Assembly: GCA_943704525.1 (NCBI GenBank)
Contig: CALSCQ010002045.1
Span: forward strand, 1 to 40,592
Length of the DNA stretch: 40,592 nucleotides
Direction: 5' to 3'
Origin: Pigoraptor vietnamica
Taxonomy: Eukaryota > Opisthokonta > Filasterea
Positions 1,985-40,592 of this stretch are shown in pieces (positions within the stretch are counted from its first letter, which is position 1; each line of letters opens with the position of its first letter). The position numbers were made by a program, and so were the translations under genes. Below the pieces are notes generated by a model. That model was not told the DNA's origin. It saw nothing but the letters and a program-made list of their open reading frames with translations, and did not search any database.

Positions 1985-4900
1985 TCACACGGGCATCAGC
2001 GGCGCCGCGTCCTCGCCCCTCTTCTTGTACTTGTGCACTGCGACGGCAACGCCGACAATCGCACACGCGACGGTGGCACCGGCGAAGGCCGTCCCCACGA
2101 CAAAGGCCCCGGCTGCGGACGAATCGCCAGTTGCGGACTGTCCGCCGTTCGCGAATCGCGTGCCGGCCGACAACCGTCTTGCGCGCGATGCGAATGCACC
2201 AACGGCGCGCTGCGGGCGGTCGCCGTCGTTCTCCACCGTCGCGGGATCGGGGTTTTTTTCTGGCGACTGCGACGAGTGCTGCCCTTCGGCTGCCGTTTCG
2301 GGCTGCTCACGCTCACGGTGCTCGGGATCAATCGCCCAGTCTTGTATGGGGAGATCGACTGCAGGGGGATCGACAGCGGGGGGTTCGACGGCGACGTCCT
2401 CAGCTGGGCGAACGACGGGTGCGCGCGCGACGGAGGGCTGCGCCGTGCCGCCGGTGGCCTGTTCGGGAGTGCGCTGGACGTCGCGGGCGTCGAGGAGCGA
2501 CTTTTGGGGGCAGTAGTTGCTCGGAGTGCCGGCGCAGTCGTTGTGGACCGTCGTGTTGGCGCGGACGAGCGGCGTGTTCCAGGGCGCCTCGCACGAAAAC
2601 TTCTTCGTGAGGGGGAGGCCGACCTCCGCGTACGGCTTGGGCTTGAACGCCTTGGGCAGCGTGAAGACGAACGCGAGGCAGCCGCCGCGCGGGCAGTCGG
2701 CGAGAGAGCGACCTGCCGTCGCAGAGTGGCCGCTCGCGCGCGTGGCCCAATACTCACAGACATCCTTGAGCGTCTCGCGGAGCTGCGGGTCCGTCACGTT
2801 GCGCGAGACGACGCAGCCGGTGCCGGTGTGGTTCGGCTCGCACACGTCGCGGGGCATGCACTGGGCCCAGGGCTCGGTCCCGGCGATGTCAAAGTCGCCG
2901 GCGATGAGGGCGTTGTCGAGCGTGACGGTGAGGACGCCGTTCGACACGGACGCGCTGCCCTTGATGCTCGGCGCGGGGATGATCGCCTGTTGCTTGTTGT
3001 CGCCGTCGAGGTACTCCGTCGGAAACACGCGCGCGAAGAAGCCGTCCTTCGAAACGTCGAAGCCCTCGCCGACGTAGATCTGGTACGTCACGCTGCTCGT
3101 CTTCTGCGGGTAGAGCTGGTAGAGGGCGTACGAGTCGCCGCCCTGGAACAGCGCCTGCGAGCGGAAGTTGCTCTTGAAGCGCGCAGGTGTGGTCGGCCCC
3201 GTACCTCACGATGGACAAGATGACGTACTACATCGACACGCGCCAGCAGGGGCTCGACGGGCCCGTGTGCTCCCGCTTCAAGAGCAACTTCCGCTCGCAG
3301 GCGCTGTTCCAGGGCGGCGAGGTACGGGGCCGACCACACCTGCGAGCCCGCCATCATCGATGCGTGCGTGCACGAGAGCATGCCGTTGGCAGCCGAGACG
3401 GCGCCGCAGATGTCGGCCTTGCACAGCTCGTCGTCGTCCTGAAGAAGTTGGCGGTAGATGGGCACGTAGGGGAACGTCGTGTGGACGTTCGAGATGTCGC
3501 TCGACGGCTTCGTCGGGTCCTTGAGGCCCCAGTTGAGGTCCACGCGCCACGCCGAGGGCATGTCCTTGCTGCGACGGGCCGACGTGAGCACCGTCGTGAG
3601 CGCCTCGAATGGCGTCGTCTGCACGCCGAACGACCGGCACTCGGGCACCTGCGGCGGCGTGTTGAAGAACGTGTTGCTCGAGAGCGACGACGTGCGCATC
3701 GTGTGCGGGTTCACGACGCCCGTCAGCGTGCCGTCCTCATCGATCAGAATGGTCGACGTGTCGATCGGTCGCACGTTGTCGAAGAGGCCGTGGCCGGCGA
3801 GCGTGGGCTGCGACTTCGGACCGGAGAAGAGATACGGCTGCGTGACGTCGACGACCGTGTGGCGCAGCGTCTCCTTATCGAACGCCGACCGGCGGAAGGC
3901 GAAGGCGGGCGGGTAGTAGAACCCATTCGGCTGCTTCCACCCGATCGCGGCGCTGGTGACGGTCATGTGACGCGAGTTGCGGCCGCGGGAGATGTCCTGG
4001 GGCTGGTTCGACATGCGATAGACGCCGCACTCGGCGCTGCCAAGCGAGGCGTCGCAAGAAAAGTTGCCGGCGTTCATGAACACGCTCCCGTCCGCGAAGA
4101 ACGGGCCGTCGTAGATGGTGATCAGGCGCGAGTTCTGCAGGCCACCCGCGTTGATTGCGACGCCCTCCGCGGGGATTGGGCAGCTCGATGCGAGGCACAG
4201 CGACTCGTCGACGACGGGACCGGTGAAGTTCGCGTGCTTGCTCTCGGTCTGCGTGCGACCGATGAAGATCGAGTTGCTGGCGAGCATCCAAAACCCCGGG
4301 GGCGCATCGAGCCACGAGCCGCCGGTCACGAAGCCGACGCCGCCGAACAGCTGGTCGGTGACGGCGGCGTTGGAGACGAGGAACCAGTAGCCACGCAGCC
4401 ACACGGAGCCAAAGTTGACCTCGGCCCAGTTGAACGAGGTGCGGAAGCGGTCGATGAGAGCGGCGCTGCAAAGAAGAGGGTTGCGGTAGTGGTCGTCGGA
4501 GCCGGGGAAGGGAGGAGAGCGGTACAGGCTGGCCTTTGCGCACGTGACTGCGTCGTTGATCTGGTAGATGGCGTCGTTGCTGAAGCGCGTCGGCTGGAAG
4601 TTCTGCGTGACGCGCGGCAGCATGTTCGACTGCACCTGGTACGCCGCAGGGCGGGGAACGCTGTCGCGCTGGCCGCCGTTGAAGCCGGCGTCGCGCGTGG
4701 ACACGGGGAAGATGTCGATGGACGTCTGGATGCCTGCGTACGCCGTTCCGCACGAGTTGCCGCGGAAGCGCTTGATGGGGCTGAGGCGGCCGGGAATCTT
4801 GTGCCACTGTGCGTAGTCGCGCGAGGTGCTCGTCTTGGACGCCCACAGGAGTGAGCTGCTGGCGCCGCTGAGCTCCGAACCGAGCAGCCAGAAGCACGTG

Positions 4901-6754
4901 CCGAACCCGTGCACGCCGATCGCTGCATTGCCGACAATCTGCGGGTGTGCGTGAGAGCAATCAGCACGTTGATTGCAACAGCAGTGACGAATGCTGCCGT
5001 GCCGTCAACAGGAAAACACTGCGCGCGCACTCACGTCGTTCCACGCGTTCATGACCCAGAAACCCGTGGGCATGTAGTCGTCGCTGCCGCCAACCCGCGA
5101 GGGGTCGCTGACCGTGACGCCGGGGAGGATGCCGGGCACCTTGCGCGCGGTGAGGGCGCCCGCGGGCTGCGCCTTTAGGTAGGTCATTAGGGGCGCGCGC
5201 ATGCCAACGGCCAGGTTGTGGCACACGCGGTTGTTGATCTCGCTCGCGTCCTCCAGGTAGAAGCCGTGACCGACGGAGAGGTAGCCGACGTTGCGCGAGA
5301 GCTCGACGTTGTGCGTGCCGTGGATGACGGCGAAGCGGGTCATCGAGTCCCAGGAGGACGAGTCGCGCACAAACGAACGCGTGTACGTCGTCTCCTTCGC
5401 GAGGTGCCAGTGGATGGGGTAGTGCGCCATGCGGCCGCCCTGGCCGAGCTGGCGGAATTCGACGCCCTGCACCTCGTACTTTGCAAAGCCCTGGCGAACG
5501 ATCGTGTGGCCGCCAAAGTAGCACATGGGGTCGGTGGAGCCTGCGCCACACGCCGAAGCGGCGGGGAACGCGGCGTCGGCCGTCGCACCCAGCGAGCGGA
5601 TCGTAATGCTGCGCGTGAGCAGACCAACAACGGCGCGCGTGTCGACGTCCTTGTTCGGGTTGCGGGCCTGCTGGCGGAGCGCGTCGTCCACGGCGGTCAG
5701 ATCGCCAAAGTGGTCCCACTGCAGCGGCGCCGTGAGCTTCACCACCTTTGCGCCCGCGACGTCGGCTGCGACCGAGACGACCTCCGAGTGGCTGGGGTGC
5801 CAGTCGGTGGTACCCAGCACGATCGTGTCTCCGCGACGCCAGTTGACGGCGCGGTCGAGCGTGATCGACGAAGCGCCCGCCTTTGCCGTGACACCGAGGC
5901 GTGCCCACGAGTGTCCGGTCAGCTGCGCCCATGCATCGGACGAGTGGGGGTCGGCGGGCGTCTCGCACTCGTCGCTGTGGTCGCTCGTCGGGTCGACAAA
6001 GTGCTTGGGATCGACGCCGTTGCGGCCGAACAGCTCGAGGCTACCGCCGTACGAGACGGCGAGGACCTTGAAGCCGAACATGTTGCCGGTGCCGTCGATG
6101 GCGAGGGGTCCGTAGCCCTCGAACGCGCTGTTCTGTCCGGACGCGGCGCAGGTGGCAGGCCCTGCGCACGGCGAGGTGGCCTTGCTTCCGTTGCAGCAGA
6201 AGCGGGACTTTGCCGCCTCGGCCGGGTAGCAGCCGCCCTCTGTCTTGCACGCGATGCCTGTGGCCGCGACGGAGCCCTGCTTGGTCGGGTCGTCGCCCCA
6301 GAGCGAGACGGTGAGGTTGCCGCCGGCGCAGCCAAAGGGGCGGCACCACTGTCCCGCGACAATTCGACCGCCCTGTTCGATGAGGATGGAGTTGGCGCGG
6401 AGCTCGATCTGGCTGCCGTCGTCCACGAACCAGAGCATGCCGCCGGCGAGGACGTTGATGTGGCGGTAGGTGTAGGTGCCGGCGCCGAATGCCATGCATG
6501 TCTTGACGACAATGTCGGTCGAGGGGTCCTTGGCAGACGCCGCGTTCGCCATGGTGCAGCCGTTGGGAAGAGTCGCGGACGGACACGTGCGCGTGCACGC
6601 CGGATCTTGGCTGGCGGTCGCGAGGGTCGCTGCGCAAACCCTGGCGGGTCAGCCGTCGTTCTCAGTCTGTCTGTTGCTCCCAAAGTGACTTACCGAGAGC
6701 GAGCGCAAGGACAACCGCAGCTGCAGCCGTTGTGTTGCTGCTGTTAATAGCCAT
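1985..6754 (-). CDS. G8-domain / parallel beta-helix type I membrane protein, interrupted by an internal inversion
   Basis: Exons on the minus strand: 6754-6694, 6629-5035, and 4938 down to the stop at 1985. Splice phases agree at both introns. Exon 1 plus the start of exon 2 gives a signal peptide rich in Ala/Leu. A G8 domain follows (Gly-rich strands, about residues 65-190). A parallel beta-helix region comes next, with YPIHWHLA near residue 420 and IHGTHN shortly after, as in the CEMIP/CEMIP2 and fibrocystin-like families. Later come a Cys-containing ectodomain, a Pro/Glu/Ser-rich linker and a C-terminal membrane helix (about plus 2030-2110) ending in a KYKKRGED tail. The reading frame breaks at 3135-3344, where a 139-bp piece of the exon lies inverted between duplicated flanks. 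Without that rearrangement the protein would be 1,512 residues. As sequenced it stops at 3088 and loses the membrane anchor. CEMIP relatives bind or cut extracellular polysaccharide; the ligand here is unknown. Confidence 0.8.
3135..3344. repeat. Inverted segment with duplicated flanks inside the G8 gene
   Basis: Two perfect inverted repeats are interleaved: 47 bp at 3135-3181 against 3274-3320, and 26 bp at 3182-3207 against 3319-3344. They enclose a 66-bp unique core at 3208-3273. Read on the plus strand, 3182-3320 is a continuous stretch of G8-gene coding sequence (from VWSAPYLT to ALFQGG). The surrounding exon is coded on the minus strand. The arrangement in gene direction is B - (A' M' B') - A where the intact order would be B - M - A. 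The two repeat arms share 2 bp at 3319-3320. Confidence 0.93.
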
Positions 6755-9005: not shown

Positions 9006-10323
9006 CTACGACTTGCCAACAGCCGCGTCCACGCGCTCCTTCCACCGCCTCCTGTTCTCAATGCAGTTGTCGTGGAGCGGCTTTGTCGCGGGGATGACCC
9101 GCTCGAGCAGCCCAAACGCAGGCGCGCAGATGAAATCGATGAAGCCAATCTGCATCTGAGGGAGGTCGCACGAGCGGTTCCGGTCCATCATCGGTATGGG
9201 CGTGCGACCCGCCGCGCGCTCAGCGTCGCCCTGCGCGTAAAACTCCTCAAAGATCGTACGCGCCGTCGACTCCTGCTGAACCCACGGCTTGGCGACGGCC
9301 GACACGTCGCACGCCGTCATGAGCAGCGACTGGAGCATCTGCACGTGGTCGGGCGACGACTTGTTGAAGCCGCCGTTCTGGACCGCGTCCTCGAGCTTCT
9401 TGCGGTTACCCGGATAAGACGCGAGGTCCGTCGCGAGAATGGCGTGTCGGATCACGGCGAGCATCGCACTGTACTGCTCTCGCGTGAGCCGCCCGAAGAT
9501 GTCGTGGCCCTCCTGGCGAAGGATGGTCACCGTGTGCGCAAAGTGGTGGTGCTCGAGGACGGCCGTCGAGTAGAGGCACGCTAGCGGCGTCATCTCGTTG
9601 ATCTGGAATTGGTTGTTGGTGCCGCGGTGGTCGAGGTCGTGGCAGAGACACGCGACGAAGAGTCCCATGAGTTCGATGTCGGCAAACACCTGCCGCATAC
9701 GACCGTGCTGAATGATGAGGAACATCGTGTGCGCCACGTTGAAGGCGTCTGCGGGGCGGGAGGGTCAACGGAGGGTTAGAAGATGAAACTACGTCACCCA
9801 AAGTAGCTGCGCGTGATGCAGATTTCTCCATGCGGAAAGCAAATGCTGCTTGGGCGCACACGAGAGGAAGACAGGCCGATGCAAGAACACATTCGAACAA
9901 AAAAGTGAGCCGTGTGCGATACCCACGCGTCCAGTTGTGGTACGGCACCCGTCGGTAGTTCTTTCGCACCGTCAGCACAAACCGGCAGAGCGTGTCGCGG
10001 TCCATTCGAAACTTCCCTTCGTACGCCCCGAGGTCCTCAAACATGCGCAGCACATAAAGCGGCTTCTGGTCCTCAGTGAGATCAAAGGGGCTCAGGTCAA
10101 ACGAGTCGAACATCGGAATTTCGACGACGCGCGGCACTCGCTCGTTGGCAAGGCCCTTCCACTCTTGCTCGGCGCACACGGCGTGGTACGAGAGCACCTC
10201 GAGGGCGACCTGCGCAAAGACGGAACGACGAATGTTCAGCTAAGAGTGACAAGGCAGATGCACGCGCACAGACAGCATACGGCCCACACCCCTTTGACCC
10301 CCTCCCCTCATATCAACACACAG

Positions 10324-10417
<94 letters not shown>

Positions 10418-12340
10418 GCGCGTACCTTGTGCATCTGTTCCGACTTGTTCAACTTCTCGTAGAGCTGCGCGTGGTGGATGGCGAGCCCGCAGAACGCCGC
10501 AAACGCAGCAAACAGCCGCTCGTCCGTCGCCGTAAAATGCCCCCCAATCTTATTCACCATCTGCGCGACGCCAATGATGGTGTCGCCGTTGCGAATCGGC
10601 ATGCAGAGGATCGTTTGCGTCCGATAGCCCGTCTGCAAGTCCACAGCCTTGTTGAAGCGCGCATCCGCGTAGGCGTCCCCAATATTCAGCACTTCGCCCG
10701 TCGTCGCCACGTGACCGGCAATGCCCTTGCTGAGGGGGAATCGCACCGCGTCGTCGGCAGGGGAAAATACAGAACCACGCGCGGGCGCACCCGCAGACGC
10801 CGTCGAAAGTTTCTGCGCCACAGGCTGCGGTATGCTGTGTAAGGACATATCGGGCCGCCCCCTCCCCAGCGCCGCCGATGCCAGGTCGTCAGCCATGGCC
10901 GTGACCACGTCGTCCGATTCGAGCGTCTCTTCGGCGCTGTCCTGCCCAAGCGAGTTGACGTTGAACACGCGAGAGTAGAGCTCTTGCGAGAGCTCGTCGA
11001 CGAGGAATATCGAGCACCGGTCCGCGTGGACGAGCTGTCGCGCGTGGTTCATGATCTTGCGCAGCAGCTTGTCGAGATCAAACACGCCGCCCCCCTCAAA
11101 CATCGACCGGATGGTCGTGAGGAGAAGCGCCGTGTTGCGCGCGTGCAGGCGCATCTCGGCGAGCGCCCGCACATTTCGCAAGAGCGTCTCGCAGTGCGAA
11201 ATGGCGTTGAGCACGAGCGACTCGTCCTCCGCTGAGAAACAATCCGCGCCCCGCTTGTCGAACATCTCGCAGACGCCCAGCAGTTCCACCTCCCCACTCG
11301 CGTCCTCCGCCGGCGAAGCAAAGCCCTCGTCCGTCGCATCGCTCGAGTTGTGGCTCGCGCGTTCCACACGTCCCGAACCGGAGACGAGGCGTCCCGTTCG
11401 CTGTGACGACACGGCCCGCGTGAGCGCGTTGAGCGATGGCGACGACTGCGCCTTCTGCGCCGCCCACAGCGGAATGCACATGATCGACCGCCGCGTGGAC
11501 CCCGCACCAACGAGCTCCCCGCGCCCCAGCCGCAACCGCATGCCAGACTCGGCGACCTTCCCACACACGCCGTGCCCAAACGCAATCGTGTCCGGCGGGT
11601 CCACCTTCAACACCGCGCCCGTCGAACTGTACAGCGCCGACCCAGAGCCGTTGCCTGTGCCGTGCCCCCCATTCGCAGCCGCGACAGACTCGCGCGATTG
11701 GAACGCCGTCCCCGACCGCAGAGGCTCGTTTCCCTTTCGCGCGACCACGAGGTGCAGCTTGCGTGCGGCGATATCGGCAGCGTACAGCGCAAAGCCCGCC
11801 GCATTCACGGCGCGCGCGACCGTGTTGAGGAGGCCGCCCAGCAACCTGTTGCCGTCCGAGGGGTCGCAGACGCCCTTCCACACGTGCTTGAGGAGGTCCA
11901 TCTCGGGATCCATGACGGGAAGACCAGCAAGCGCAATCGAACCTTCGTCTGCGCGAAGTGGAAGCGCACAACACTGTCAGAGAAAATGAACGGAACGCAC
12001 AAGGCGCAACAATTCGTGGCGCATATGCAACAGAATGCACGAACGAGGGAGACACCACACGCACGCACACGCACGCACACGAACCTGAGTGCTTGACGGG
12101 CGTTACGGGCTGCTCCGTCCCCGGCGCCGCCGCAGGCACCGGCTCAGGCTGTGTCGTGTCGGCCGTCAGCAGCTTGTGCCGAAGCCGGAGGAAGCGGGCA
12201 CGCACGCGCTCGGGGCTGCCGCAGTCCACCAAAAAGTCGTCGACAAAGTCGGGGTTGTCCTCGAGCCATTTGCGCATCTTTTTGCGCTCTGCGGGACGGA
12301 ACGACGGCACACGCATGAGTGAGTGTTGGGAGAGGGCCAT
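9006..12340 (-). CDS. Cyclic-nucleotide phosphodiesterase with tandem GAF domains (PDE5/6/11-like)
   Basis: Four exons: 12340-12085, 11948-10426, 10239-9927 and 9748-9006. All GT-AG phases agree and give 944 residues. The N-terminus has RKWLEDNPDFVDDF (about residues 23-36), like the N-terminal segment of PDE5/6/11 proteins. GAF-A spans roughly 105-350, with a Ser/Arg-rich insertion and a NKFDE-like DKR..FSAEDE signature near 316-328. GAF-B spans roughly 370-585, with a clear NKIGGHFTATDE signature near 551. The catalytic domain (about 610-940) has YHNWTHAFN at 693-701, metal-binding HDLDHRGTNN from 734, LEHHHF, and the purine-binding Gln in QMQIGFIDF. It hydrolyses cAMP and/or cGMP, probably with allosteric cyclic-nucleotide binding to a GAF domain. 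Substrate preference cannot be read directly. Intron 2 holds a long GT/CG tract. Confidence 0.93.
10326..10422. repeat. (CA)n followed by (CG)n, in PDE intron 2
   Basis: About 38 CA dinucleotides run straight into about ten CG dinucleotides. The CG end abuts the splice donor of the minus-strand gene (exon ends at 10426, donor GTACGCGCG), so the intron begins with (CG)n then (TG)n on the sense strand. Confidence 0.95.
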
Positions 12341-15469: not shown

Positions 15470-18400
15470 TCAATCCGTGTTGAGCACGAGGCACACGCCC
15501 TGCACAATCCAGTGGCTCGGGTGCTCCGTCGTCGAGAGGTACGACTGGAACACAAAGCCGTCGCCCATGGCCGTGCGGCGCGCCTGCGTCACGTACACGG
15601 GCGTCGTGAACGTGTTCTGCGTCTTGAGGCGGTGCGCCTCGACGGGGATGATGCGCATGACGGGCAGCTCGTCAATGATCTGCTTGGGCTTCTGGCGCAC
15701 GAGGCAGCCCTTCTCGCGGCTCCAGCCGGCGCCCTCGAGGAATAGGCCCGACACGTAGCAGCCGAGAGCGGGGCGCTCGCGCACGTCCTCAGGGGCGACC
15801 CACTCGGTCACCTGCGTGAACAGCGTCGAGCGGTCGAGCGGCCACCCGTTGATCCGGCACGCCGTCTGGACGAGCGCCGTGAGGTACGACTCGGGAATGT
15901 GGAGCCCGGACAGCCACATGACGACCGGGTCGCCCTTCTTGACCCACTCGTCGTACTGGTTGTAGCGGCGCATAAAGTGGGCCATCCAGTTGCCGAGGTT
16001 CTTGCGCGTCGACGGCGCGAGGCGGCGCCACGTGGCGGGAATGTCGCCCTTGAACAGCGCGCTTGCAATCTCGTCGAGCTCGTCGTTCATGCCAATCTCG
16101 CCCGCGAGGGCCTTCTGGAGGTCCGCGAGCGTGACCGACATGCGCGTGACGAGGCGGTTCCAGCGCTCAATCTCCTGCAGCAGGACGACTTGCGTCGGCT
16201 TCGGCGTGCCCATCGCGCGGCTGATCTTCTGGAGGTCAAACAGCTCGGGCAGCTTCGTCTGGATGTCCTTGGCGATCGTCGCAATGAACGACTCGCGCGT
16301 GACGCCGCCGGACCCGTCGCCCGAGCGCGGCTGGAGGTCGATGAGGTTGCGCCACATCTCCTTGACCGCGTTCGTGAGGTACCCAATCTCCGCGTTGATG
16401 TGGAGGCCAAACACCTCGGGAGAGTTCGAGAGGGGCAGCGACTCGATGTAGTCCGTGTAGACCGACTTGGGGCCGTTCGCGGGGACGGCATACTCGACCT
16501 CGGCGTTCTTGTAAAAGCGGAAGGGCTGGAAGGCGTCAAAGAGGAACTCGCCCATGTACTCGTCGAGGTACGTCATGAGGACGCGGCGGTCCCAGCTGTC
16601 CGTCACACGGCCGCCGTACATCGCCTCGCCGATAAGGTACCGCAGCGAGCCCCACGGCATGCGCGTGTCGGCGTTGTCGTGGGCCTTGGTCAGGTACGTC
16701 TCGAGGAGCATCAGCGACACGCGGAAGTCCGACTCGTTGAAGTCGTAGGGCACGTTCCACCCGATCTTGCCGTACTTGCGGCGCTCCTGGACGACCGCGT
16801 GGAAGAAGGCGAGCACATACACGAGCGGCTTGAACGCCTCGTGCGGGCACCGCTCGAGCACGTCCTCCGACACGCGCGTGTAGCTGCCGCGCAGGTTGAG
16901 CTTGAGGCCGTTCGGGGGCTCCGTGACGACCTTGAGCGACCGCTGGAGAATGCCGATCGGGAAGCGCTCCGTGGGCTCCGTCGTGAGCCAGAGGCGGAAG
17001 TCCGGGTGCGGCTTCTCCAGCTTCTCGATGATGCGCTCGAGCTGCTGCAGCCAGTCGACGAGCAGGTGGCAGTTCTGGAGCATCAGCCACTGCCCGCGCG
17101 TGATCGCAGTCTCGAGCAGCTGCAACGCGACAGGTCCCTGGCCCTGGCCGAGCGACACAAACTTGAGACGCGTGTTGAAGCCCAGGCTGTCAGCGAGCTT
17201 GAGGAGGTCCGTCGCGGGGTCGGAACCCGGGCTGAGGATGAACACGACGGGCGTCAGCGCCGTCGTCTGCGAGTAGATCTGCTGGAAGTCGAGGACCGGG
17301 GGAGTCACGTAGCGCTCGCCGAGACGCCGGATGACAAAGTTGATGAACGCCGGCTGCACGCGGTCCACGCGGAGGCACTTGAGCAGGCACAGCCGCTGGA
17401 AGTCCGACACGGCCGCCTCGTACTTGAGCGGGAAGGGCGCGCTCTCGGGCGACTCGAGCGCGTACCACTTGTGCCACTCGGCCTCGTGGCGCTCAATGTC
17501 CTCGGGGAGCGACGCGAAGACCGTCCCGATCGTCGCGAGGCGCAGCACGTCGTTCCAGCCAGAGTCCGGCAGCCACGCCGGGAACGGGTTGTTGCGGTTC
17601 GAGCGCGCGAGCGAAATGTTGCCCTTGAGGAAAAAGTCGAGCTCCTCGGCGTCCATCTCGCCCTCGGCCTGCATCAGCTTGGTCGTCATGTGGAACGAGA
17701 ACATGAGCTTGTGGGCCTCAAACAGGCCCGTGCACGCGTAGTTGTACACGTTCGTCGTCAGCGCGTCCGTAATGTTCTCCAGGCGCTTCGGCAGGATCGG
17801 GTTCGGCATCGACCGCTTGAGCGACAGGTCGAAGATCTCGAGGTACGACGCCAGCGAGTACTGGTACATCGGGTTGATCGCCGAGAGCTCCGCAATGGCA
17901 AAGAAGAGGACGGCGCCGCGCTTGGCCGCCGGGCGATACTCGTCGCGCGCCGTCTCAATCTCCTTCGACGTCGAGTGCGCCTTGCGCAGCTTCTCGCCAA
18001 TGTCGTCCGCCTTGGCCTTGGTCTCCTCGAGCGTCGCGATGAGCTCGGCGTTGTCGAGCATGTTGCCGCTCGAGTTGGCGAGCTCTCGGAGAAGGAGGTC
18101 CTCGAGGTCCTTGAGCAGCGACTTGTTGACGCTCATCTCGTGGACGAGGCGCTCGCGCTCCTCCTGGAGCTCCTTGCGCTCGAACCCGACGACAATGTTG
18201 AGCAGCTGGTCCTCGAGGCCCTTGGGCGTCACCGTGTAGTTGATCACCATCGTCTTGCCAAAGACCGCCGGCGAGTAGTTCGGGTTCGCGAGCTTCGTCG
18301 TGAGGTAGAGGCGGAAGTTGGGGTCAAAGTCGACCTGCTTGTCGCCGAGCATAATGTACTGGCGGCCGGCCTCGGTGCGCACGTTCTTCTCGAGGACGGG

Positions 18401-21400
18401 ATCGATGACAGGGTCAATGTACTCGTCGACGTTCTTGAAGAGGAAGGGGAAGCCGTACGTCATGGCCATCTCCAGCTGCTTCAAAAAGTCGCCGTCCTGG
18501 AACGTGCACACCTTGAGCCCGTTCGGCCCCTCCTTCTTGCGGATCCAGTTGATCGCCTGCTGCTGCGGGTCGATGCACAGCGGCCACCGGTTCGCGCGCG
18601 TCGTGAGGATGCCGTTCTGCACCGAGAGCTCGTCCGACGGGAGGCCCTCCGACGCCCACTTGCTGATCTCGACGTCGTTCGTGAGGAGGCTCTCGAGCAA
18701 AAACGGCGTCGACATCGGCACCTCCTTCTCGCGCAGGTCCGCCTGCCACTCCTCGTAGACCATCCGCTGCCGGAACTCCCACGTGAACGCGCCCGTGTAG
18801 CTGAGGAAGCCAGCCGACAGCAGGCAGTCGCCGAGGAGTCGCTCGCGGCTCGCCTTGAGTTCCTCGAGCTCGAACTTCCAGCGCACCTTCTCCGAGCCGA
18901 GGCCCGAGATGAGCTTCTCCGCGGCGAGGAGTCGGCGCTCCATGAGCTCGGCCTCCGCCTTGAGCGACCGCTGCTCCGACGTCGCCTTCTCGTAGTCCTC
19001 GCCGAGCTTCGCGAGGTCGTGCTGCAGGCGCTTGACCTCCGCCTGGATGATCTGGAGGTCCTTCGTCGCAATGTGGAGATTCTTCTCGAGGCGCGCGACG
19101 GCCTGCCGCTTCGGGTTCACCGTCTTGGCGACCGAGCAGTAGCCCATGATGGCCTCGACGAACTGGAGCATTCCGGAGCCCGCCGCCGAGATCTCGCGCA
19201 TGCGATCCACCGTCGTGTCGAGGTCCTTGAGGAACTGCTTGACCGTCTTCTGCTGCTGGTTCGAGATGGCGTCGACGTCGAGGTTCATCAGTTGCGTGCG
19301 GAAGTCCGGCGCGGCCATCATCGACTTGGCGCTCTTCCACGAGACCTCCTTGATGTTGCGCAGCACGAGGATGCACTCGCACACCTTCTGCACCTCCATC
19401 GGCGGCTTCGCAAACGAGCGCACCTCGGTAATGTCAGAGTTCGACAGGTTCTGCAGAGCGAGACGCGCCTGCTCGAGCGCCGGGAGGGCCTCCGCCAGCG
19501 CCGCCTCGGCCTCCGCCTTCTCGCGCGAGATCTCCTGGTTCTGCGTCGCGAGCTCGGCCTCCTTCGCGATCGCCGCCTCCTTCTTCGTCTCGGCCTCCTT
19601 CGTGTTCGAGCTGATCTTCTCGAGGAGCGCGTTGCACGCCTGCGTCTTCTCGTTCACGGCGACCTTCTGCACCTTCAGCTTCTCCTCGAGCTCCTTGATC
19701 TGCTCGCTCGCCTCGATCAGCTTCGTGAGACCCGACCCGAGGCGCCGGCACTGCTGCTCAATCGACTGCCGGTTCTCGCGGAGGAGCGACAGGTAGTTGT
19801 TGACGTAGTCGAGGTAGTTCTTCGGCGTCACGTAGTTGGTGCGCCGCAGGCGTTGCTGGTACTCGCGGCTGTACTCGGCGACCGACAGGTGCACCTTGAC
19901 CATGTGCATGATCACAGACTCGCGGCGCTCGCCGGGCACGTGCTCCTCGCTGACAAACACGTCCGCGACCGACCGCAGCGCCTGCTCGGGCCACGGCGTG
20001 AACCAGTCAATGACCGTGTTGTTGACGAGGCCCGGGAAGTTGCGGCAGCGCTGGCGGAGCGTGTCGCCGACGGGCGACATGGCGAGCGCAATGTGGAGGT
20101 TGTCGGCGCACTTCTCGACAAAGAACGACCAGCAGTTGTCCTTGGTCGGGTTGATGCCCTTCGCGGCGACCTCGTCGCGGATCGCGTTGATGATCGTCTC
20201 CGTCTCGTCGGGCTCGTACAGCGCAGGGACCATGCCCGAGGTGAGCATGTTGTTGATCATCTCGAGGAACGACTCGCGCGCGACCTGCGCATCGCCAAAG
20301 AGGAAGAGCACGCGCTTGTTCTCCGTGCCGACGAGCGTGTAGAGCTTCTTCAGGTCCTCCTTGAACTCGGCCTCGCCGTACCCGCGCACCAGCGTAATCT
20401 CAAACATCTGGTAGCCGCACGTGAACGCCGACAGCCGAGCGAGCGACGACCGCCCGCTGCCGCCGACACCCACGAGCAGGGCGTGGCCGCGCGCCATCGT
20501 GATGATGCGCGTGATGCGCGTGAGGTGCTCGATGGCGTCGTCGAACAGAACGAGGTTCATCGGGGAGCGCTTGTCGTTGTACTCCTGAAGAATCTCCTCA
20601 AACACGGGCTTCACCGTCTCGTAACCGTCGACGTCCTCGTACAGGCGGAGCGCGCCGGGCTCGAGCGCGCGGCGGTAGTCCCCAAAGAGGATCGGGTTGC
20701 GCGCGGCGTACTCGGCGGCGTCCGGGAAGAACTCGCCAATCGCGACGCCGACGCGGCCCTGCACAAACGCGCGGTCCTCGTCGCTCACGAGGCGGTCGTG
20801 GAACACGCGGAGGCACTCGTTGCGCCACAGGCGGACAATGTGCGACGTCGTCGGGAAGCAGTCGACCGTCGCCTTCGTGAGGCCCTCGTACACGCGGCTG
20901 AGGTCGCGCAGGTTGAAGATGTAGTGGAACTTGGACGGCGTCGGCGGGAGCTGGTTCACAATCTCGCCGTACAGGCGCAGCGTGGCCTCGGTGATCTTGC
21001 CGGCGACGCCCGAGATCTCCGAGCTGAAGGGCTTGAGGTGCTCCGTGAGAATCGTCGTGTAGATGTGGCGGAGCGCGCTCTCGGACGGGAACGTCACGTT
21101 GAACACGCTGAAGAGCGAGAGGAAGCGCGGGTCCACCATGTTGCGCCCACCGCCCGGCGTCGCCATCGCGGCGACAAACTGCACATCCCGGAGGTACTTC
21201 CAGTTGAGGTCCTTGCCGCGATCGTAGAGGCCACCGCGGTCGATGAGCAGCTTGAGCAGCGCAATCGGCTGCTGCGTGCCGTACGTGTCGATCGACGGCA
21301 TCGAGAGATCGTCGATGAACACGAGCATGCGCTTGCCGGCGGGCGGCCCAAAGCTGTCCTTGGTGCGCTTCTCCACGTTCGCCTCGAGGTTCTTCTGCAC

Positions 21401-24400
21401 GTCCAGCGACGTCGTGCGGCTGCTGAAGCTGATGCACACGACGAGCGACCGGTCGGAGTCGAGCCCACGAAGGTAGTTCTGGATCGTCACCGTCTTGCTC
21501 GTGCCAGACGCGCCCACAAAGATGACGGGCTTGCGCGTGTTGACGACGCGGTCGAGGAGCCACGTGCTGCGCACCGTGTCGGCCGTCGGGACGAGAATCT
21601 TGTAGAACTTGTTGTCCTTCGGCGGGGCGTACTCGGGGACCATGTCCTCCCACGGGCGCCAGCGCAGCGCAGAGTCGTCAAAGTGGTAGTCAAAGAGCGT
21701 CGGGAGTCCGTTGGGCAGCTGCGAGAGGCCCGCGTTGCGCGCGGACAGCTGCAGGCCGGCAAGCTTCTTGATGAGCGTGTCGAGCTTGACGCGCCCGTCC
21801 TCGAGGAGGCACGCGCCCATCGACCACACGAGGCAAAAGATGAAGACGGCCTCGATCGCCTGCTCGTTGAGGTGCGTCTTGTCTTCCGTGAGGATCGACT
21901 CGAGCATCGTCACGAGCTGAGTCACGAGGTTCAGCCCCGTCTGCGGCACGGCGAGGCGCGGCTTCGTCTCGTGCGCGCCGCCCTCGAGGATGCCGTCGAC
22001 GACAAAGTTGACGCAGAACTTGACGTACTTCTCGTACAGCTGCCAGAGCGTCTCGGCCTGCCCGCGGTGCTGGTACATGTTGCACCACCGGCGGAAGAAG
22101 GGCTCGTAGCCGAGGTTCTTCGGGTCGACGTACACCATCCCGCTGCGGCTCACAGTCGCCGGCGACGCGTACTGCAGGTCGCCGACCTCGTAGAGGAGCG
22201 AGCAGTGGCGCTGCAGGCGGATGCGCTCGCCGTTCGCGAGGGTGAGGAGCTTGTTGTCGTCCATGACAGAGTTCATGTTCTCGACCCACACCGCGTCGAC
22301 GTCCCCGTCAAACACAATGTAGCGGCGCTCCTGCTTCTCCGCGCCGAGTGGGCGGTTGATCTCGCGGAATATGTGCGAGAGGAGACCGTCCGTCCACTCG
22401 CGCTTGACGGGGTCGAGCACACCGTACAGCTCGCCGACCGTGACGGCCTTCGGGTTGAGCGTGTATAGCTTCGTCATCAGCCCGAGACGCGTCTGCGCCT
22501 TGGCCAGCGTGCGAATTACCACCGACTTGCCGCCGCCCGAGGGACCGACGACCATCGTCGTGTGGCGCGTGAGCATCGTCTCGTACAGCTGCACGACCTT
22601 GTCGACCTGGTTGGGGAGGAGGACGTAGTTGGACTCTTGCAGCGACGCCTCCACCGCGTCGTTGAACGCCGGGTAGCGCACGCGGGGCACGTCGAGGCCG
22701 GGCGAGAGGTCCTGGATGAGGCCCATGAAGAGCGGCACGTCCTCAAACACAAACTTGGGGAGGTTCATGTCGCGGAGCGCGCGCATGAGCACGACGTCCT
22801 CGTTGAGCTCGGGGTTGCCGCGCTTGAGCTCGCCGGCCATCACGAGGACGGCCTTGAGGGCGCGCATGCCGAAGTCGTAGTGGTTCTGCTTCGACAGCTG
22901 CTCGCGCGCGAGCTGGTAGAGGACCGTCATCTTCTTCGCGAGGATCTTGGCAAGCTCGAAGCCCTCCGAGAAGAGCATAATCTCGCAGATGAGCTCGAGG
23001 TCGGGGACGACCATCACGACGGGGCGGAACAGCGACTTGATGTTCTGCGGCAGCTCCACGCGGCCGGCGTAGCCCGGGTTCATCGTAATGAAGATGCCCA
23101 TCTTGCCGTCGAGCGCAATCTCCGTCCCCTCAAACTGGAAGTGCTTGAGGCGCATGTTGAGCGCGCGCTGGATCGTCTGGATCTGCGCGGCGACGACCGA
23201 GAGCACGGAAAGATCGATGCGGTTGAACTCGTCGAAGCAGCCCCACGAGCCCGTCTGCGCGAGGCCGCTGAAGATCTTGCCGAGAGCGCGGTAGTCCATG
23301 CCCTCGCCGCAGTTCGTGACGATGCACAGAAGGCCGAGCGCCTTCGCGAGGTCCTTCACCGTCTCCGTCTTGCCCGTGCCCGCGGGACCCGCTGGCGCGC
23401 CGCCGAGGTGCAGCGACAGCGCCTGCGTGTTCGTGAGGTAGCAGCGGTCCGTGAGCGGCGTGATGACGAGGCGGCCGTTGAGTCCCATGTACTCGTAGCC
23501 GTAGTCGAAGCGCCCCGTGCACTGACGGATGACGACCGTGTCGGGCTTCTTCTCCCAGTAGAAGCGCAGCTGCGACTCCCACTCAAATTCGCGGGCGTCG
23601 AGAATCGAATCGCGAACGAAGCGGTCGACGATGTCGCGCGCGTGCACGTCGATGATGATGAGCGTGTTGATCTTCTTGCGGTCGTTGGCGCCGAGGTCCG
23701 AGCGCACCTGGACGACGAGCTCCTGCAGCTGCCCGCCCAGCTTCTTGCTCAGCGTCTTCATCGCCATCTTGTCGCCCTCCGCGACGCGACGGAACGTGTC
23801 CTCGACCTCCCACGTCCACCACACCTGCCCGGCGGCGAGCGTGACCATGCCGAGGTTGGCAAAGATCCACTGCACGCGGGGCATCGACGGGTAGTGGAAG
23901 ACGGCCTCCTTCGTGATCGCGTGGTTCGTGCGCTTCATCTCTTCCTGCACCTTCTTCATCCAGTCCTCGACCTTGCCCTCGGCCGTGACCGTGCGCCGGA
24001 ACGCAAGCTCCTCGCGCTCCGCAGAGATCATCCCGCTCACGACGTTCGACTGCGCGCCCGTGCCGAACCGCAGCGACTGCACGTTGTCGAACATCTTGAT
24101 GATGTGCTCCTGCACGGCCGCGGGGTCGTCGCTGCCGAGAATCGAGAGCAGCTCGTCGTCCGAGATGAAGAAGAAGCGCGGGAAGGCGTTGCGCTTCGAC
24201 TCGAGGTAGTCCGAGAGCGACTTTTGGCACGACTCGAGCTGGGCGAGCAGCCGCTGGAGCGTCTCGAGGCGGTCCTCGACGTGGCAGGCGTCGAGCACGT
24301 TCCGGTTCTTGTTCGTCTCGGTCATAATCTTCTTGAAGCTCTTGTCGATGAGGTCAAACTTCTTGGCCTCCTCGGGGAGCTGCTGCCGGATGTCGCCGCC

Positions 24401-27400
24401 GATGAAGATGCCCTCGAGGTACATCCACTTGCGCTGCACGTTCATCCACACCTCGGTCACTTCCGAAATGTGCGAGAGGCGCTTCTCCCAGTTCTGGACC
24501 TCCTCGCGGAACGACTCGACGAACCGCGATGCCGCCATGCTCTGAATGTTCATCACGTTGTCCTCGAGAAGCGTGTTGATCTCGTCGATCGTCGCGAGGA
24601 TAAAGCCGCGCTCCTCCGTCCCCTTCATGTACTTGACGACATCGAACGACGTCCGCTTCCACGTCTCGTCCACCGCCTTCAGGCCCTTCTCGATCGCCAA
24701 CTCCTTGATCGCGCCCGACGTGATCTCAGAGATGATGTCGACGTAGTTGTGCAGCTCCATCGCAAACACGTTCTGGAGCTTGAACGAGTCCGGGCTCATG
24801 TTGAACGTCTTGCCCGTCAGCGCCATCAGCTTCTTCCAGTGGCGGTCGCGCAGCGCCTCGTTCTTCAGATCGCTGAAGAGGGGGATCGAGTCGCGGAAGC
24901 CCGTCACCTTCTCGTGCACGACGTTGTACGTCGGCAACTGCTTGAGCTCCTTCGGAAAGCTGCGGAGCTCCGACGCAAACTCGTCCGTACCGCGGATGAG
25001 CACCTCGATGTCGAGGTCCGTCCAGAGCGTGTTCGACCACTGCTCGACGGCGCGCTTCTGCCGCACGTACAGGCCGTAGATGCGCTCGAGGCCGTTCAGC
25101 TTGCGCTCCATCTCAAACAGCTGCGGGTACGACGTGATCGGCAGGTCGAAGAGCTTCTCGGCGAGCACCAGCTCCTCGCGGCGGCGCTGCTTCTCGTGCA
25201 TGATGTCCTGGTACTTGCGCAGCAGCTCGACGCCGCGGTCGAGGTCCTCGCCGACGGCCGCGGGCCCGGCGTCCTCAAACTGCGTGAGCAGGCCGTCGAG
25301 ATCGGACGTGTAGTCGCTGACCTCGGTGCGTGTCGTCTCCGTGAAGTGCTTCTTCGTCGGGAGAAGGCGGACGTCGACCTCGTGCGCCTGCTGGAGCAGC
25401 TCGTTGCAGCGCGCCTCGATGCCGTTGGCCATCGCGAGTTCCTCCGCAGGTATCTCCATGCCGTACATGCGCAGCGTGCGGTACCGCTCGAGAATGTCCC
25501 GGTAGCGCACCTCGTAGTCGACAAACGAGTCGCGGATCTGCTCGATCACGTGCAGCACAAACTTGAGGTCCTCGAGCGTCTCGGGCGTGCGCTGCAGCTT
25601 GCGCGAGAGGTCCTCAATCTCCGTGTTGAGCTCGACGAGGGCCTCGCGTGCCGACTGGTTGAGGTAAGAGCCGATCGCCGCGACCCACGACGACGCCTCG
25701 CTCTTCACCGCAGACACGAGCGGTGCGACCGAGAGGCGAATAAAGTCGTGGTCGCGCGTGAGCGGTTGCTCCGAGACCTCGCGGCCGAGCTTCGAGTAGA
25801 ATGACAGTTTCTCGTCGTAAGCAATGACCGACGGGCGCTTCTGCGCAAACTTCTCCATCGTGATCATCTTGTCGAGCTTCCACAGCGGCTTGTAGCGGCG
25901 CCACGTGTCCACGTGACGCGCGAGGTGCGTCAGCGTCTTGGTCATGTTCGTGTTGATCGCCGTCAGCGTCGCAATGACGTCGGGGTGCGCGCTGATGTCC
26001 GGGTAGAAGCTGAAGATGACCGGCTGCTGGTCGTCGCCGACGTACTGCGGGGGCGTCTCGAGGCACGTGCCGTGCTGCCAGCGCACAAACTGCTTCATGC
26101 TGTCGACGAACCCGACGCAGTACTTCATGACAATCTTGTGGATGTCGGGGATCGATGGCGAGATGACGATCTCCGGCGCCGAGAGGCTCGCGCTGACCTT
26201 GAACAGGGGGTTCATGCGCTCGCGGCGCTTGCGCGTGATCATCTGGAGGAACGACGTCGTGTTCGCGAGGACGAGGTGCAGCAGCGCGTTGAACACCTGC
26301 CGTTCCCAGTGCCCGTAGTAGCTGCGCATGTCCGGCGACCGCCCCGTGTTCGTGTGCACGACGAAGCCCTCGAGCTTCTCGAGGAGCGGCGGAATCGACC
26401 GGTAGCGGCGCACGAGCGACTCGATGGCGCCGTTGCGGAACTGCTCGAGCTGGTCCGTGAGGTCCCTGCAGTCGATAAGCTCGTCCGTCGGCGCGATCGG
26501 GCGGATGAGGCGTGCGCCGGCGATCGACGCAATGTGGGCGCTGATGTCCTGCGCGCTCTTCTTGATCTGGTTGACGAGCGAGTAGAACTTCTTAATCTCC
26601 TGGTTCGCCTTGGCGAGAAAGTCGGGCACGCCGAGCGACTGCCAGTTGATGCGCTTGACGCCGGGGACGAGGACCTGCTCGAGGCGCGCCATCTCCGCGC
26701 GGAGGAGCCCGCGCTCGGCGTCCTTGAGTGAGTCGAACACGGCGTGGTAGTCGCGCAGCATGCCCTCGACGTCCTTCACCTGCGTGAGGTACTTCTCCTC
26801 CTGCAGCGTGATGTTGAGCGCCGTCTCCGGGATCGAAAAGCCGATCGTGTCGAGGTACTTGGCCTCGCGAATAATCTCCCAGATCTTCGACGAGAACGTG
26901 CACGAGATGCGGCGCGCGACCGACGGGTCCTCGGCGTTCTCGCGCACCTCAAACTCGAGAATGTTCTTCTTGAGAAAGTTGATCGCGTTCTCCTCGACGT
27001 CCTGGCACCACTGCTGGTAGAGCTTGTTTTCAAAGTCGCGGATGGCGCGCGCGACCGTCAGGTACTTCTTCGTCGCAAACTTGCCCTGGTCCGTGTTGAG
27101 CATCCCCTTGAGCGTCTGGAAGCGCAGCACGGGCTTCTTGATCCGGTAGAAGAGCGAACGCGACCAGTTGATGGCGCCGGCGACGGGCGGCTGGTTCTTG
27201 TAGCACGGCGGGTGCTCGCGACCGGCCTGGAACATCTGGTCCACGACGTCGACCTCCTTGCAAAACTGCATGAGAATCTCGTCGTACTTCTTGAGCATCT
27301 GCGCGTTCACGGCAGAGTTGATCGCCGCGCCCGACTGCAGGTTCTTAAAGTTCTGCAGGAGGTCAAACGCCGTCTCCGACGACCGCAGCGCCTTGAACGA

Positions 27401-29287
27401 CGCGTCGATAAAGTGCTTGGCGAGCGCCTCAATGTCCCGCTTCTGCCGCTCGAAGCGCTCCGTGACGCCCTGCCACAAGTGCGCCTGTCGCTGGTCGAAC
27501 ACGTCAAACGACACGTCCTCGACGAGGTCCACGAGCCCCTCCACACGACGCAGCACCTCGTCGATCCGCTCGTGGTCGCCCGTGACCGCCTTCAGCTCGG
27601 GACCGAGGACGTTGCGAAACTCTTCAATGTCCTGGATGATGTTGTGCACGTCGTGGCACCGCGCCTTCATGTAGTCGGTGCGGTCAAAGAGGCGCTTGCG
27701 ATCAAACTCCCACCGCTGGTCGCGGCCGGACGCCTCGATCTTCTCGCGGACGGTGAAGTACGTGTCGCTCCACAGCTGCAGCACGGCGGCCGACTCCTTG
27801 ATCTTCGCCTTGGCCTCGGCGGGGTTCTCGCGGAGAATGGTGCGCATGTTGACCGTCCCCTCGACGCGGTCGGCGAGCGTGTTGGCGATGCGCTCCATGA
27901 GCGGGACCATGCGATCGTCCTTGTTGTAGTGGCGCGAGATGATCCAGACCATCCGCAGCGCGTTCATCATCGACGGGATCGTCTCGAGAATCACGTTGAG
28001 CGTGCCGTGCGAGATGTTCTTAAAGTGGCGCTCGAGCGTCGCGAGGAACTTGACGTTGTCCTTCGCCTCGGCGTAGTACTTGTCCAGCTCGCTCAGCTTG
28101 TAGTCGAGGCGCCCGTACACCTGCGACTCGGACCGCACGAGGACCTGGATCATGTCCTGCACGATCGGGAGGCTCAGCTGCTCGTGCAGCGCGCCGAGAA
28201 GCGCGTTGCGATCGTGCCAAAACTGAATCTCCCCGAGCGGCCCCTTCGATGTCGGCACGCGGTTGAGGACCTGCTCGATGAGCGTGTCGATCGCCGCGAC
28301 CCACAGCTCGGCGGCCGACTCTATCTGCATGACCGTGTCAAAGTCCTTTGCCGCGACGTTGACGTCGTCGATGGTGACGTTGGGGATGTTGATTTGGATG
28401 TCCCCGGACACCTGCTCGATCACGTTCGCAATGTGCGACGAAAACTTCATCATCGACGTGATGAATTCGCTGCGGATCTGCGCGTCTCCCTTTCGCGCCT
28501 TCCCGCCGGCCGACGCGTCCTCTTCCGCCGGCGCCGCAGAAATGAGCGGCTCGTACACGTCGCCGATAGCCTGCTTCATCATCACGAGGCAGTTGCCCGT
28601 GAGCACGCCGTACTCAAACGCCTCGCTGATCGGCTCAGAGTCGGCGTCCCCGCGGTACGGCGTCGGCACCTTCTCGACGTTCTTGATGAAATACATGAGG
28701 CGCACGTACGTGTCCTTCTTCTTGTTTGGGAGGTGCCCGAAACACACGCGCAGCACCAGCCGCGTCTCAATCACGTACGACGGCTGGGGCTCGGCCGGCA
28801 CGAGCGCCGCGGCCGCACCCTCCAACACGGGCGCATCCCCTGCGGGCATCGCAAGGCCGTCCCCAAGCGACGCACCGAGGCTGATCGTGCTCTCCGGCGC
28901 CGCAATCAAATCGGCCGTCGACGCGGCCTCGAGCGGGCCCTTCGGCTCGCCCTCCGTTGCTGCAGCGACAGACTCGGCAGCGGCCTGCGCGTCGAGTCCA
29001 TTCGCGGTGCGACCGAGCGAATTCTCCGCCGAATCGACGGCGTCTGGCGTCGGCGGGTGCTCGATGGGAACGCGGACATCCTCGTGCGCCGTGTAGAACA
29101 CGAGCGCAGAGTGCGTCGAGATGCCGTCGAGAAAGTCAATCACGCGCTTTTCGTTCGGCTCCTTCGCGTCGGGATCTTCCCTCGTCATGAGATCGCTAAA
29201 CACGGACGTGTCGGGAAGCTTCAAGTGGATGCACGTCTTGCTCTGCAGCCACCGCAGCCGCACGTCGCTGTCCATCTTCGCGACCAT
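15470..29287 (-). CDS. DNAH10: Axonemal inner-arm dynein heavy chain, DNAH10 type (I1/f beta chain), intronless
   Basis: One uninterrupted frame of 4,605 residues from the ATG at 29287. A further in-frame ATG lies upstream at 29359 and another downstream at 29275, where [10 protein letters not shown] resembles the family start. The tail matches DNAH10 ([36 protein letters not shown]). The motor has P-loops GPAGTGKT in AAA1 (about residue 1967), GPSGGGKS in AAA2 (2248), GASGTSKT in AAA3 (2592) and GVGGSGRS in AAA4 (2940). The coiled-coil stalk with the microtubule-binding domain spans about 3180-3465. The C-terminal domain has IIPVEAHRL and ends GVCLVLNTD, the DNAH10 signature (IDA2/1-beta in Chlamydomonas). 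It drives ciliary bending as part of the two-headed I1/f inner arm. All key motifs look intact. It is remarkable for lacking introns over 13.8 kb while neighbours have four to nine exons. Confidence 0.97.
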
Positions 29288-29914
29288 TTTCCTCTCAACA
29301 GTCCCCCGCGCAAGCGGACGACCGGCGAGAAAAAGTGCAACGCACGACCCACCACGCACGCACTCACGCCACCGGCGGCGGAGCGATCACACGCGAGGCA
29401 AGGTCAGAAAGTTGCGAATAGGCCCGCCCAGCACAGCAGAGACAGGCAGTTCGGGGAACGACCCCCCGCGCACGCAGTGTATCGAATAATGATGCAGAGC
29501 AGAATGCGTGCGAATGTAAGCGAATAAGAGGGCCACGCACAGCACCGTGCGTGCGTCCCTGTCCGTTAGGAGAGAGAGGGTCGAACGCATGCGATTTTTG
29601 AACGCGAGACAGAGTCACTCCTCAGCTGCCAGTGGGCCAGTAGTGAAGGCGGCCGCGAATTATTAGGGTCATCCGGCGTCATACAGTTTCCATAGATAAG
29701 CAAAATTTATTACGCAAGGCTCAAATCTGCCCCACAACACATTCCCACTGTCAATCGCCATGACGACGGCTCACTTGATGACAACAGTCACGTGATACCG
29801 TCACGTGAAGTGTGTCATGTGATGTCACGTGATGACCCCTCGAACGGCGTCGCTAAACTAAAACAGAAAGCCGGGCTTCGTGCCAGTTGACGCAAAAGGG
29901 GCCGAGAGAGCAAA
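29288..29914. promoter_or_regulatory. Divergent promoter spacer DNAH10 / CENP-O
   Basis: About 630 bp with two start codons facing away from each other. The dynein side is GC-rich; 29640-29760 is AT-rich. The CENP-O side holds the palindrome cluster listed separately. Short frames here do not resemble genes. Confidence 0.55.
29771..29832. promoter_or_regulatory. Cluster of TCACGTGA (E-box-type) palindromes upstream of CENP-O
   Basis: Three perfect TCACGTGA palindromes at 29788-29795, 29801-29808 and 29825-29832, plus two one-mismatch copies, TCACTTGA at 29771-29778 and TCATGTGA at 29815-29822. All five fall within 62 bp, about 80-145 bp before the CENP-O start codon. CACGTG is the core bound by many bHLH/bHLH-ZIP factors. 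The binding protein here is unknown. Confidence 0.6.

Positions 29915-30933: not shown

Positions 30934-31009
<76 letters not shown>

Positions 31010-40497: not shown

Positions 40498-40592
<95 letters not shown>
40331..40592. repeat. Compound satellite: (CA)n, (GA)n, (CAGACA)n, (CA)n to window end
   Basis: CA repeats, then an AGAGAG block, then at least eight ACAGAC hexamers, then about 46 pure CA dinucleotides running off the end. It lies upstream of the first visible kinase exon, so it is probably intronic. Confidence 0.97.

Follow-up and report, generated by a model that had tools for sequence, protein, structure and literature searches.

How did a conserved coding gene come to hold a piece of itself reversed in place, with both flanks of that piece present twice? 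The question is raised by a stretch of Pigoraptor vietnamica DNA, here called the window, which is the whole of contig C837 (40,592 nucleotides) in an assembly of 32.5 Mb and 1,395 contigs. The gene concerned is encoded on the minus strand, and its parts, together with those of the rearranged stretch, are as follows.

5005 to 6552, minus strand: first large frame, with a G8 domain and a CEMIP beta-helix.
3088 to 4914, minus strand: second large frame as sequenced; the reading is correct as far as ...GSQVWSAPYL, and 76 foreign residues follow before the stop at 3088.
1985 to 3133, minus strand: continuation of the gene below the lesion, shifted out of frame in the sequence as it stands, with an open frame of 382 residues.
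3135 to 3181, plus strand: arm A, the 47-bp copy left at its original position, a perfect inverted repeat with 3274 to 3320; in gene orientation it codes for the end of the conserved stretch.
3182 to 3320, plus strand: inverted segment (b, core and A'), 139 bp; its coding strand is the plus strand, that of the gene the minus strand.
3182 to 3207, plus strand: b, 26 bp, the inverted copy of B'.
3208 to 3273, plus strand: inverted core, 66 bp, single copy, with 4 differences from the paralogue on contig C316.
3274 to 3320, plus strand: A', 47 bp, the inverted copy of A.
3319 to 3344, plus strand: arm B', the 26-bp copy left at its original position; the GA at 3319 to 3320 is common to A' and B'.

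Two Pfam families were found in the first large frame, both above the Pfam cut-off (PF10162, E 3.8e-9, and PF24606, E 2e-37), and it also matched PDB chain 8c6i_A ('Cell surface hyaluronidase', E 8e-22). The gene product is predicted to be a surface protein like CEMIP or cell surface hyaluronidase, with putative hyaluronan-degrading activity. Elsewhere in the window, on the minus strand, a single open frame of 4,629 codons (15470 to 29359) encodes a dynein heavy chain with a coiled-coil of the axonemal 2/5/8 type, and an open frame of 557 codons (10240 to 11913) contains a GAF domain. Matches to the tubulin family were found as well. The dynein heavy chain, with its axonemal type of segment, shows that the host is a eukaryote, probably one with flagella or cilia.

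On the plus strand the order of the rearranged stretch was L - A - [b - core - A'] - B' - R, in which two inverted repeats are interleaved. The initial annotation had placed perfect inverted repeats of 47 and 26 bp here, interleaved and overlapping by 2 bp, and each of these points was reproduced at the same coordinates: A and A' were identical at 47 of 47 positions, b and B' at 26 of 26, and the overlap fell at 3319 to 3320. It had also described a frame shift ending at 3088, which was recovered after ...GSQVWSAPYL as the 76 foreign residues listed above, and a membrane anchor at the end of the restored gene. The correct frame below the lesion did remain open to 1985, where it ends in a hydrophobic anchor-like segment and a basic tail, the anchor being judged by eye. 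As rearranged, the gene predicts a truncated protein without an anchor. As for a rescue by splicing, 82 GT..AG pairs of at least 50 bp around the lesion would restore the frame with no stop in the tested stretch, but this is a raw count of dinucleotide pairs, which are frequent anyway, and it says little by itself. With a stricter donor pattern there were two matches within 3000 to 3500, at 3228 and 3131.

DNA and protein searches of the same genome, in which only the best candidates were scored so that the counts are lower bounds, identified at least three further members of the family, on contigs C316, C650 and C147. In C316 and C650 the flanks and the core lay in gene order, the arms were not duplicated, and the frame ran through the region uninterrupted, ending in an anchor-like stretch. 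Matches in C147 agreed in order and strand and were separated in places by intron-like interruptions, and its core match was short (11 codons). Three of the three further members found were thus collinear, with that one short core match. Because all three keep the segment in gene orientation, the collinear order is taken as ancestral and the window copy as derived. This comparison bears out the earlier description of an in-place inversion that duplicated both flanks. Relative to the ancestral 139 bp, the derived stretch measures 210 bp, a net gain of 71 bp (2 modulo 3).

The claim that the plus strand of 3182 to 3320 encodes the stretch missing from the gene also held. Compared with the gene strand of C316 at 9589 to 9727, this piece was identical at 129 of 139 bases, ungapped, over 45 codons with no stop and a dN/dS of 0.41. 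Piece U gave a dN/dS of 0.30 over 536 codons and piece D one of 0.39 over 208 codons, neither with a stop, piece D having a 1-bp gap on each side near its end. Window positions 2507 to 3134 matched C316 at 556 of 627 bases.

C316 was considered as the other allele of the window and rejected: strong matches covered the gene only (2507 to 6606, 82-93%; 30,000 of the 49,855 C316 bases were compared), and the other matches between the two, among those listed, were simple repeats. No near-identical collinear copy was present among the best 9 genome matches, which contained one haplotype only. Identity between window 2507 to 6606 and C316 6331 to 10355 was patchy, from 0.71 to 0.98 in 150-bp windows. 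Upstream, the longest identical runs were 80, 75 and 74 bp, at or above the longest of 2,000 shuffles (74), and downstream a run of 82 bp exceeded the 95% point of 54. Such patchiness could reflect gene conversion or strongly constrained blocks. C316 homology of the window copy stops near 2507, yet an anchor-like end follows; PF11617 (MopE metal-binding motif) was not seen in the window copy at 1985 to 2506, is present in C650, and is apparent by eye in C316.

With C316 standing in for the ancestor, the stretch resolved into three ordered ancestral fragments, the middle one reverse-complemented, which is the pattern of a four-point template switch. The pieces aligned without gaps: L-A at 121 of 132 bases, b-core-A' at 129 of 139 on the other strand, and B'-R at 104 of 130. 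Described in this way, 401 bases were accounted for with 47 mismatches and no gap, compared with 306 bases, 47 mismatches and 8 gap runs in a single linear alignment under one set of penalties. The copies of each arm had in common all 6 of their differences from C316, 5 in A and 1 in b. Therefore the locus copied itself, and not a paralogue, as templating from the same locus in a four-point switch requires. Junction homology, again with C316 as the ancestor, was nil at 3181|3182 and 2 bp (GA) at 3319 to 3320.

Inverted repeats of at least 6 bp were absent from the 139-bp segment of C316, and no minus-strand self-match was found in the 19 kb of C650 that were compared. Because the C316 segment is free of such repeats, those of the window are taken to be products of the event and not its substrates. 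In the portions consulted of the work on human/chimpanzee microinversions (PMC8755829) and on a yeast spacer (PMC8604942), a small inverted piece likewise lies between inverted repeats, but in those cases the repeats are regarded as the driver of the event, whereas those of the window are a product and are missing from the closest paralogue. Judged against the C316 segment, the flanking repeats do not predate the inversion, so a repeat-driven inversion of the kind described in those portions is inapplicable.

Coding DNA flanked by inverted repeats, with an anchor-like end downstream, also invites the idea of an invertible element that toggles between an anchored and a secreted protein. Flips preserve length, and with the 71-bp gain (2 modulo 3) the downstream piece stays out of frame whichever way the segment lies. 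By this deduction, recombination at either repeat, A/A' or b/B', does not restore the other functional form, in agreement with the earlier remark that simple recombination would not repair the gene. Because of this, and because such repeats are absent from the closest paralogue, C316 (as from the 19 kb of C650), a programmed toggle is very unlikely, and the option of an invertible switch raised in the initial annotation was dropped. Its two other proposals, a double template switch and an artefact, were retained, and repair of staggered breaks was added to them.

To place the repeats against background, perfect inverted pairs of at least 14 bp lying within 1 kb were scanned under a low-complexity filter. 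The set comprised 252,903 bases, 5,000 of them N, in 24 pieces that were drawn from 13 contigs and scanned one at a time; it included the window and the contigs of the two nearest paralogues, and amounts to about 0.8% of the 32.5-Mb assembly. The filter removed 10,500 of the 10,526 perfect pairs found, and only A/A' and b/B' among the remaining 26 exceeded 14 bp. Random expectation at 60% GC is about 1e-7 pairs of at least 26 bp and 6e-20 pairs of at least 47 bp, and the two repeats are far beyond chance. In a gapped minus-strand self-comparison, the lesion locus was retained along with one pair on contig C1 (5920 to 6741 of L014 against C1 15762 to 16567, within L015), about 840 bp long, 75% identical and about 9 kb apart. 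No second comparable case occurred in the scanned bases, although others may exist elsewhere in the assembly. Pure AC arrays were seen in the window at 10326 to 10403 (78 bp), 30935 to 31006 (72 bp) and 40499 to 40592 (94 bp). The contig terminates within the last of these, and contigs C1, C300 and C500 likewise start or finish in simple repeats.

The best explanation for the rearrangement, to which we give an even chance, is a recent one-off copying accident, a template switch, in this copy of the gene. Synthesis would have proceeded from L through A and then crossed over to the other strand, landing at the far end of B'. It would next have copied back 139 bases, by way of the core, to the start of A, before a second jump to the start of B' and onward to R. 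The switch points would then stand in the ancestral order 3-1-4-2, and the outcome would be an inverted core, two arms duplicated in inverted orientation, a gain of 71 bp and a shifted frame. Four-point template switches were described by Walker et al. (2021, PMC7954356), who cite the model of Loytynoja and Goldman. In the parts of that paper used here they share with the window the joining of L to point 1, of a reversed piece from point 2 to point 3, and of point 4 to R, as well as perfect inverted repeats. By the logic given in those parts, a switch within one nascent strand is impossible when point 2 lies ahead of point 1; the order 3-1-4-2 has this feature, and the switch would therefore be between strands. 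The commonest types reported in the same parts (1-4-3-2 and 3-2-1-4) leave a single inverted repeat, whereas the window has two, interleaved. In the literature library searched, no paper was found that names the order 3-1-4-2 together with template switching, and none that joins template switching, microinversion and a protist. Against a template switch counts the first junction, which is without the homology that is usual in template switching.

Exactly this product, an inversion whose two ends each carry an inverted duplication that the standard order lacks, would also come from two staggered breaks, if the single-strand tails over A and over B' had been filled in and the released segment ligated in reverse. 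Such a structure is called 'dupINVdup' in the excerpted human work (PMC5338099), and staggered breaks are given as the main origin of inversions in Drosophila subobscura in the excerpted text of PMC5080602. In both, as far as these excerpts go, the inverted segment is duplicated at both ends as in the window, but the cases are chromosomal inversions, whereas the lesion here occupies no more than 210 bp of a coding frame. Junction homologies of 0 and 2 bp suit end joining. The breaks would, however, require four nicks within 139 bp and the survival of a segment with just 66 bp double-stranded, and this origin is rather improbable. Template switching and staggered breaks give the same product and are not separable by sequence alone; template switching is preferred because it needs one replication accident in place of the four nicks.

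The arms without any difference, and a gene that is otherwise conserved and open, fit an artefact as well as a template switch. The assembly has only one haplotype at this locus among the 9 genome matches, which also suits an artefact, either an amplification chimera or a short piece set backwards between overlapping contig ends. Strand-displacement amplification (MDA) gives mostly inverted chimeras, 406 of 475 in the available part of PMC1855051, and these resemble the lesion in their local inverted joins with little junction homology. The chimeras in that part are two-segment joins, mostly inverted with an intervening deletion, whereas the lesion combines two joins with no deletion. A hairpin read would have one junction and no return to the original path, in contrast to the two junctions and return of the window. 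For an assembler error, the junction overlaps of 0-2 bp would require reads spanning both, and the repeats of 47 and 26 bp are unequal, unlike equal k-mer overlaps. The scan of 252,903 bases, with no second case, also argues against an artefact, which is judged a clear minority possibility. A real mutation, template switch and breaks taken together, is fairly likely and is moderately favoured over a chimera in the sequenced DNA. We infer both the presence of the arrangement in living DNA and its origin in replication.

Across the 71 independent arm positions no differences were found. If neutral, the lesion would have an age below about 11-18% of the synonymous divergence between C837 and C316 (95% bound, dS 0.37-0.24), barring conversion between the arms. 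In this respect a very young lesion and one that never existed in vivo look alike. With C650 as outgroup, window-specific and C316-specific residues stood at 9:6 of 211 downstream and 5:16 of 265 upstream (Fisher two-sided 0.041, one-sided 0.032). This weak excess of window-specific residues downstream gives a weak hint of relaxed selection and of some time elapsed since the lesion, drawn from small counts, a distant outgroup and patchy paralogue identity. The hint sits badly with mutation-free arms and counts weakly against a brand-new lesion. Loss of one gene copy is plausibly tolerated, since collinear paralogues exist.

If the rearrangement is an artefact, it is relevant only to the gene models of this assembly. 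The kind of event is already known, as short dupINVdup or four-point template switch. If real, the lesion is a clean example, with paralogues giving the ancestral order, of one local accident that produced two perfect inverted repeats and an inversion in a conserved exon. It indicates that inverted repeats around an inversion may be products and not substrates, and that an outgroup is needed before they are taken for a switch. It is highly doubtful, but conceivable, that the rearranged allele is fixed or at appreciable frequency, yielding a truncated, anchorless, secreted paralogue with a new tail of 76 residues while the collinear paralogues stay anchored. If this were true, about 46 residues of the tail would come from the antisense of the gene itself and the rest from a shifted frame, and a new protein would have arisen from one double template switch.
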